From Pseudalkalibacillus berkeleyi (GTDB lineage Bacteria > Bacillota > Bacilli > Bacillales > Fictibacillaceae), in assembly GCF_021608225.1 (NCBI RefSeq), contig NZ_JAKIJS010000001.1, positions 2,542,001 to 2,606,000 of the forward strand: a DNA stretch of 64,000 nucleotides, read 5' to 3'. This document shows, piece after piece, positions 36,347-37,861 of this stretch. Numbering within the stretch: the stretch's first letter is position 1; the number at the start of each line of letters is the position of its first letter. The notes beneath the pieces were generated by a model. That model was not told the origin of the DNA and ran no database searches. It was given only the letters and a program-made list of their open reading frames with translations. The position numbers and the translations under genes were made by a program.

Positions 36347-37861
36347 TTAACGAAGAAGTTGTAGAACTCCTTGAGGTTGTTGGTTGGCTTGCTTCGCCGC
36401 TATGTCTTTCGATCATAGAATAGACTATATCTTCACCCTTGATTATTAGGGGCTGGGCACTTCGAATGGTTATATCCACCCTACGAAATTCATCACCATA
36501 GTCTTATGACCTTAGATGGTTTTTTCTAGTCGTTGAACCTTCTCCACTCTTTCGAGACAGGAGCTTGGCTGCTGATTATCCAATCCCACTCATTTTCTAA
36601 CCCTCACGTCTGTCGTTTCCAACTACGTTGTGGTTGAGTAAGCTTAAGGAAGTTCCAGCAATTCACCCAGTTATACTCTTACCCGTTACCAGATAAGACG
36701 CCCTTCAATCAGTTACCTTAGAAGTTGTAAAACTCCATTCGGAGACTGCATTGATTGAGCCAACATTGCTTGTGCTGCTTGTGAAAGAATAGAATTCTTA
36801 GTTTGGTTCATCATTTCTTTCGCCATATCCACGTCACGGATACGAGATTCTGCAGCAGTTAGGTTTTCAGAAGATGTACCTAAGTTATTAATTGTGTGGT
36901 CTAAACGATTTTGCCATGCTCCCAAAGAAGAGCGTTGTGCAGAAACCTTTTTGATCGCTTCATCAATAACTTGAATATTGTCGTCAAAGCTCTGTGTAGT
37001 TACATTTACAGCTGCAAGATTAGCTACATTTGCATTACTTGCAGTAGACCCAAGAGCCGATGATCTCATATCATCTATTGAAATATCCAATGTAGTCCCA
37101 CCATTTGCACCAATTTGGAAGCTTAATGAAGTACCACTAGTAGCTATTGTTCCTCCACTAACTGAACCTCCAGCATTAGCTGTACTTAAGTTAGCATCAG
37201 ATCCAAATGATAATTCTAGTCCAATAGAGTCAAAGTTTAAAGTTGTACCTGCAGATATTGCAGTAGTATCAGCTACTGTTAATGTTTGTGAAACCCCACT
37301 ATTTGTACCAGCAACAGTTATAGAAGTACCTGTTGTTGTAAATGTAAGAGTCTCTCCTGCAGCAACACCTGAAACAGATGCAGTAATTCCAGAAGCAGTT
37401 AAATCAGAAATTGCCATTGTTCCATCTGCTGCTTGTACACCTAAAGATCCATCTAATAGTGTCTTCGTGTTGAATTCAGTTTTATTCGCAACACGATCAA
37501 CTTCAGTGTTCAGTTGATTAATTTCTTTTTGGATTTCAGCTAGATCATCTGAAGTATTTGTGCCATTATTGGATTGAACTGCTAATTCACGCATACGTTG
37601 TAACATACTATGAGTTTCATTTAGAGCACCTTCAGCAGTTTGGATCATTGAGATACCGTCTTGAGCATTCCGAGATGCTTGCTCCAATCCACGAACCTGG
37701 CCACGCATTTTTTCTGAGATTGCTAGTCCTGCAGCGTCATCTCCAGCACGGTTAATACGAAGTCCTGAAGATAGCTTCTCCATTGACTTACCTTGTGCAG
37801 TAGAAGCACTGTTCAACTGACGATATGTGTTAAGAGCTGCGATGTTGTGATTAATTCTCAT
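36347..37861 (-). CDS. hag: Flagellin Hag, interrupted by a group I intron
   Basis: Exon 1 runs 37861-36758 (368 codons, from MRINHNIAALNTYRQ to AQAMLA). Exon 2 runs 36391-36347 (14 codons and stop). Splicing gives 382 residues ending AQANQQPQGVLQLLR, the usual Bacillus flagellin end. Without splicing the frame reads 14 codons into the intron and stops at 36713, also giving 382 residues, ending AQSMQSPNGVLQLLR. The conserved D0/D1 N-terminus and the C-terminal helix (LTAAESRIRDVDMAKEMMNQ) are intact; the middle is Thr/Ser/Gly-rich surface domain. AAGGAGG precedes ATG 37861. Expression is expected under sigma-D and CsrA/FliW control. Confidence 0.93.
36392..36757 (-). other. Group I self-splicing intron in hag (366 nt, IA-like)
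   Basis: Core elements on the minus strand: P2 CTTATC/GGTAAG (36697-36692, 36683-36678); P3 CTGGGT/GCCCAG (36670-36665, 36458-36453); P4 TTGCTG/CAGCAG (36661-36656, 36574-36569); P7 GACTA/TAGTC (36531-36527, 36427-36423), with the S element AAGATATAGTC; P8 CCC/GGG; P9 CTATG/CATAG (36418-36414, 36404-36400). The 5' site is after U (GGCU), the 3' site after G (GCGAAG). Intron start CAATCA pairs with TGATTG (36711-36706) as P1 extension, and GGC (36702-36700) can pair with exon GCU including the U-G pair. Exon 2 starts CAA, able to pair with the same TTG as P10. There is no homing endonuclease gene. P1's lower stem is short, the least certain part. Confidence 0.93.
36713..36757 (-). other. Intron-borne alternative flagellin C-terminus (in frame, with stop)
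   Basis: The first 45 nt of the intron encode QSMQSPNGVLQLLR and TAA, in frame with exon 1. Exon 2 encodes QANQQPQGVLQLLR and TAA, also 45 nt. Ten of 14 residues agree, and three shared residues use different codons (Leu, Leu, Arg). The stretch sits inside the P1 loop, so it serves as both coding sequence and intron. Confidence 0.88.

Follow-up and report, generated by a model that had tools for sequence, protein, structure and literature searches.

A group I intron in a bacterial protein gene is generally considered harmless only if it is spliced out. The flagellin gene hag, on the minus strand of the window (the whole 64,000-nucleotide stretch of DNA that was analysed), is interrupted by such an intron 14 codons before its end, and the first 45 nt of the intron encode a further flagellin C-terminus, hereafter called the decoy. 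The question raised by this locus is what a second ending does inside a ribozyme, that is, whether it is maintained as protein, as RNA or as both, and what becomes of the flagellin encoded by an mRNA that still contains the intron.

Layout of the hag gene and the P1 hairpin of its intron

Exon 1 of hag (36758..37861, minus strand) runs from the ATG at 37861 to a last codon GCU (Ala 368) and encodes the flagellin N-terminal region and most of the C-terminal helical region. It is followed by a group I intron of 366 nt (36392..36757) and by a distal exon, exon 2 (36347..36391), which encodes QANQQPQGVLQLLR and a TAA stop. The decoy occupies 36713..36757, also on the minus strand; its codons, CAA TCA ATG CAG TCT CCG AAT GGA GTT TTA CAA CTT CTA AGG TAA, are in frame with exon 1 and translate as QSMQSPNGVLQLLR followed by the stop. 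The decoy product and the spliced product comprise 382 residues each, and the two endings agree at 10 of 14 residues and at 30 of 45 nt. These features (an in-frame second end, equal product lengths, ten shared residues) were already described in a sequence-only reading of the locus and hold on re-reading; its further statement that one gene gives two full-length flagellins follows from the sequence as coding capacity, while production of both proteins has not been observed. The decoy product fills the Pfam Flagellin_C model (1-86/86) and aligns up to the final residue of the solved B. subtilis flagellin (5wjt). A genome search detected hag as the only flagellin gene; the second match was weak (31% over 131 aa) and belongs to what we take, by recognition, to be a FlgL-like gene.

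The intron is matched by the Rfam group I model RF00028 at 84.9 bits (gathering cut-off 50) over 36400-36731, on the same strand as hag, and the model is covered completely (1-253), so that the conserved catalytic core is present; at 366 nt the intron is too short for a homing endonuclease gene. Beyond the Rfam match, its limits are inferred, with splice sites after GCU at 36758 and after G36392, from the U.G wobble formed when exon GCU and the first intron nucleotide face GGGC, from the final G, and from comparison with intronless flagellins. A terminal G precedes the 3' exon in 16 of 16 aligned introns. Placing the 5' splice site at the end of the decoy, as the P1 of the Rfam alignment would have it and with a longer in-frame product as the result, was rejected: the spacer used for that pairing varies among relatives, and the pairing of GCU and the following C with GGGC is invariant.

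The decoy is also used as RNA, an aspect that goes beyond the sequence-only reading, since by its predicted pairing it forms the P1 hairpin presenting the 5' splice site; self-splicing itself is inferred. The GGGC guide (36700..36703) pairs with exon GCU and intron C+1, leaving the U.G pair at the splice site, and the spacer past the decoy stop (36704..36712) is the 3' strand of a P1 extension whose 5' strand, together with the P1 loop, is supplied by the decoy. The first decoy codons pair with this spacer between stop and guide, and the later codons fold on themselves into an inner hairpin. GCT precedes the 5' splice site in 152/152 intron-bearing genes, as GGGCG is likewise found in 152/152, and in only 23 of the 36 flagellin copies that lack this intron in the loci retrieved; such fixation is expected if the codon has to pair with the invariant GGGC guide via the U.G wobble. 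P1 is present in 76 of 77 minimum-energy folds (the exception is L057), and decoys fold with their own spacers at -5.87 kcal/mol, against -3.83 (sd 0.13) with shuffled spacers, in 135 distinct pairs, a comparison that does not correct for relatedness. The spacer ranges from 7 to 16 nt, the decoy measures 14 codons in 152/154 introns, and the most variable decoy amino acids sit in the spacer-pairing part.

Conservation of the decoy and selection on both endings

The decoy end is real and extends more widely than could be seen from one locus, being common to a large intron family. In a search of 60 genomes (the host's own and relatives), a full-length intron at the same place was found in 16 loci read, with the ending intact in all 16; a relic in genome G029 lies beyond those loci. 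An intron query lacking the decoy matched 117 of 397 genomes of the order, at the hag site or at an upstream site; those read comprise 30 automatic loci, 60 regions picked by coverage of the intron 3' end, again with the decoy absent from the query, and a sample of the upstream type, the remainder being unread. A pattern scan of named genomes, likewise made without the decoy, gave at least 117 matches, and among the matches listed were 108 flagellin genes with a decoy, one flagellin gene without, one pseudogene, and seven without a flagellin frame, which were treated as chance. Once the loci were pooled and made distinct, with a recognisable exon 1 end required beside the core, 154 introns remained at the hag site, nearly all from Bacillales, and 152 of them carry a decoy of exactly 14 codons, which disfavours chance as an explanation. 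The 75 named introns span about 30 genera in the families Bacillaceae, Caryophanaceae, Anoxybacillaceae and Paenibacillaceae, among others: 73 belong to Caryophanales (Bacillales), one to Caloranaerobacter (Tissierellales) and one to a 'Pseudomonas' record. The latter (Pseudomonas sp. ISL-84, L205) holds a Bacillales-type flagellin gene with both introns and is probably mislabelled or contaminated. Within the genus Geobacillus (14 genomes), the decoy type occurs in seven genomes, the upstream type in four, and both in two.

Frameshifts or stops in this segment of related introns had been named by the sequence-only reading as what would refute a functional second end. Among the 154, the check found one frameshifted decoy (L046) and one intron with no trace of a decoy, in the second flagellin gene of Oceanobacillus luteolus (L092 c=3180 / L150), and outside the set there are broken loci, namely a pseudogene with stops in exon and decoy (L091/L147), an intron core without its 5' part (L085) and a 3' relic (L028/L035). 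Loci L250-L266 also lie outside the set, and L238 is counted within the 152 though its exon 1 frame is broken (by eye) and its exon 2 stop lost. The O. luteolus tail reads FEQIAA, again an AA end.

Several kinds of evidence support selection on the decoy as protein. Over 76 phylogenetically independent pairs its dN/dS is 0.129, falling to 0.051 in codons 8-14, close to the 0.120 of the last 20 codons of exon 1 (76 pairs) and the 0.070 of exon 2 (68 pairs), while the wrong frames +1 and +2 of the decoy give 0.96 and 3.6; an earlier set of 38 pairs agrees (0.124). The pairs derive from one approximate tree, and dN/dS is limited to loci with a decoy, leaving out 2/154. In the first 77 decoys the motif VLQLL is invariant as protein, with second codon positions unvarying and third positions varying much. 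When a segment was simulated on the same pairs with freedom to change as long as the hairpin kept its energy, amino-acid changes in codons 8-14 numbered 118-129, about seven times the 17 observed, and in codons 2-14 they numbered 265-288 against 105. The simulation also produced 10-17 in-frame stops, a class of change that the real set cannot show, as decoy-less loci (2/154) are excluded from it.

The two endings moreover vary together. Decoy and exon 2 end in the same residue in 139 of 144 genes, whereas 2000 shuffles reach at most 118, the pairs being R/R in 123 genes, Q/Q in 11, G/G in 5, K/R in 4 and Q/R in one, and 9 of the 16 Q/Q or G/G pairs use different last codons at the two ends. 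On the intron-core tree the last residue shows 13 decoy changes, 8 exon changes and 13 joint changes, and residue 8 shows 9, 6 and 10, respectively; exon changes behave as if they fell on branches where the decoy changes too. The view that codon differences between the ends point to selection on the protein, and not to simple recent duplication, is thus borne out by the dN/dS values with their wrong-frame controls, the failure of the RNA-only model, the co-variation of the last residue and the retention of the decoy in 152/154 introns.

Exon 2 is in turn complete in 144 of the 145 decoy loci with enough sequence, with only L238 having lost the stop. At one locus (G029/L035; G029:C1:3509000-3513800), a gene lies between hag and the relic of the intron's 3' half, presumably a FliB-like gene by recognition; there the 5' half of the intron is gone and the old exon 2 has decayed. 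Splicing therefore seems to matter too, although its occurrence in vivo is inferred from sequence alone, and both endings appear to be in use, because an unused ending should decay. Steady differences exist between the two: at position 2, 60 of 77 decoys have Ser where 76 of 77 distal exons have Ala, and at position 5, 72 of 77 distal exons have Gln where decoys mostly have Met or another residue. These differences could reflect distinct isoforms or mere needs of RNA pairing.

Explanations for the second ending

An RNA structure made of the P1 extension and the inner hairpin might by itself conserve the segment, the coding being incidental. The extension does co-vary with the spacer and the inner hairpin does fold, but the wrong-frame controls and the RNA-only simulation (which uses a simple energy criterion) contradict such a reading, as does a decoy that holds its length while the spacer does not, and next to no weight is left for it. 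It is only a little less improbable that the decoy is a non-functional relic, or a duplicated exon end kept similar by recombination. Ten shared residues out of 14 would suit this origin, but the DNA of codons 8-14 matches the gene's own distal exon at 14.62 of 21 nt and those of others at 14.20, the last codons of matching Q- or G-ending pairs are often unlike, and a relic would not give the low dN/dS observed; furthermore, with only one flagellin gene in the genome, there is no paralogue to serve as donor. The idea that the intron no longer splices and that hag really ends with the decoy draws on the fact that the unspliced open reading frame, read mechanically, is a complete flagellin, and is hardly credible in view of the strong selection on exon 2, the GCT kept before every splice site, and the decay of the old distal exon where the 5' half of the intron is gone.

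A regulated switch deserves more attention, in which splicing efficiency, set for instance by temperature, would determine the ratio of two functionally different C-termini. Both ends are under selection, residues 2 and 5 distinguish decoys from distal exons, and a second-hand report exists of temperature-dependent splicing (PMC4853749). On the other hand, the differing residues lie within the P1 extension and may reflect RNA pairing, and VLQLL is common to both ends, whose last residues usually change together, as would suit equivalence and not contrast. Such a switch is possible but unlikely.

The explanation preferred here, to which a probability of about 0.72 is given in the absence of RNA or protein data, is that the decoy is a substitute ending, through which unspliced mRNA would still give a usable flagellin while splicing stays under selection. 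The P1 hairpin of a group I ribozyme would have been turned into a replacement 3' end of the host gene. Before splicing, or where it fails, ribosomes leaving exon 1 would enter the intron, read its 14 decoy codons and terminate 7-16 nt short of the guide, so that the unspliced route would release a complete flagellin and not one short of its last 14 residues; once splicing is done, the canonical end would be made. Translation and splicing are inferred to compete, as translation of the decoy requires P1 to be opened; after termination P1 could re-form and the RNA could splice. A flagellin lacking 14 C-terminal residues is probably exportable and unable to pack properly, and a spare end would be worth keeping in so abundant a protein because this loss would spoil packing. 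The main benefit is probably, again by inference, the absence of a truncated, filament-poisoning form of an abundant, polymerising protein, which would make the intron nearly harmless; assembly of both proteins is likewise inferred. Two intact genes without a decoy keep the intron, which counts against a substitute ending. Whether the decoy serves as a fail-safe or as a source of two isoforms, both raised by the sequence-only reading, cannot be separated from these data, which include no expression data, and is left undecided.

The upstream intron and comparison with known systems

A sibling intron lies 23 codons upstream (between RDVD and MAKEMM), 37 codons from the gene end, in 67 of the 152 decoy genes; 80 lack it and 5 are unclear. 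Of 96 distinct cases read, a count restricted to introns with an in-frame stop no more than 140 nt ahead of the core, none had a decoy. Their in-frame tail is YALAA in 65/96 and ends in LAA in 70/96, in AA in 88/96 and in A in 94/96; among nine tails longer by whole codons (6 or 8 instead of 5), eight end in AA and one in VA. The unspliced products of L007, L011, L013 and others would thus end in YALAA or similar. We take this end to resemble the E. coli ssrA tag, and the tag encoded by the host's tmRNA, as read by eye in an alignment, ends in FALAA. Amino-acid changes in the tail number 19, against 32-40 in the RNA-only simulation, and those in the last codon alone 2 against 2-6. This last codon lies in a hairpin, its first two bases being paired in 89 and 82 of 96 folds, respectively; of the 15 cases in which at least one of the two is unpaired, 14 nevertheless end in Ala. 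The evidence for an ssrA-like degradation tag is suggestive only, and degradation by ClpXP is hypothetical.

Taken together, the two sites allow a broader and more tentative proposal, held at somewhat less than even odds, that flagellin group I introns hold a position-tuned control in the P1 loop by which protein from unspliced mRNA is either repaired or discarded: an intron 14 codons from the end would give a substitute C-terminus and a working product, and one 37 codons from the end would give a YALAA tail and a product that is destroyed. Other group I introns of the same genome, outside the window, include L001 and L003, in host genes that are presumably thyA- and nrdE-like (by eye); neither has a decoy or an AA tail, and the upstream frame stops no more than about 35 nt from the start of the Rfam match (LYQR*, GGSR*). 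Also outside the window, a group I intron (42.6 bits, under the cut-off) appears to split the host's tmRNA gene close to the 3' end (L004, G000:C1:2477562-2480862); an SmpB-like gene (165 bits) lies nearby, and ARAGORN detects no tmRNA at this locus.

Flagellin genes with group I introns are known from Geobacillus and thermophilic Bacillus (Hayakawa & Ishizuka 2009, 2012, as cited in passages of PMC3984707 and PMC4853749); gene and kind of intron are the same as described here, and those passages mention no substitute C-terminus. The latter article, citing Hayakawa & Ishizuka 2012, states that the thermophile flagellin intron has a temperature-dependent ribozyme activity, which promotes motility at higher temperature. 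This result fits the upstream intron type better than the decoy type; should that intron nevertheless carry a decoy, flagellin from unspliced mRNA may fail to support motility. Searches of open-licence PMC text, a scope that excludes most subscription papers and both Hayakawa & Ishizuka primary papers, turned up no description of a substitute C-terminus in flagellin introns, nor one of an intron-encoded ssrA-like tail in bacteria. The introns are thus already known, and the decoy ending is the apparently unreported part.

This intron family seems to solve the problem of the unspliced intron at the protein level, with one stretch serving as ribozyme hairpin and as coding sequence, and it offers a natural system for the study of competition between translation and ribozyme folding and of intron retention as a source of protein isoforms. 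It also carries a warning for annotation: the unspliced open reading frame resembles a complete flagellin, which makes it easy to overlook the intron and the canonical end.

Among other systems, we know of no substitute ending in the IStrons of Clostridium difficile. Like the hag locus, these elements contain group I intron parts and could yield protein variants through alternative splicing, but the variants arise from alternative splice sites and the element includes insertion-sequence parts (PMC4853749). The mobile ORFs with C-terminal duplications in mitochondrial genes of Glomus and Allomyces are similar in that the insert supplies a replacement C-terminus for the interrupted gene, the duplicated ends of atp6 being 63.5% identical in DNA and 91% in protein; in contrast to hag, the element contains an endonuclease ORF, and the native end is replaced and, in some genes, untranscribed (PMC3630166). 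At hag both ends apparently stay in use alongside the ribozyme, whose P1 hairpin includes the decoy ending. Finally, the HAC1 intron, like that of hag, encodes a tail on which the fate of protein translated from the unspliced mRNA depends, but the HAC1 tail destroys its product, whereas the hag decoy would complete it (PMC5114014); the closer analogue of HAC1 would be the upstream flagellin intron with its YALAA end.
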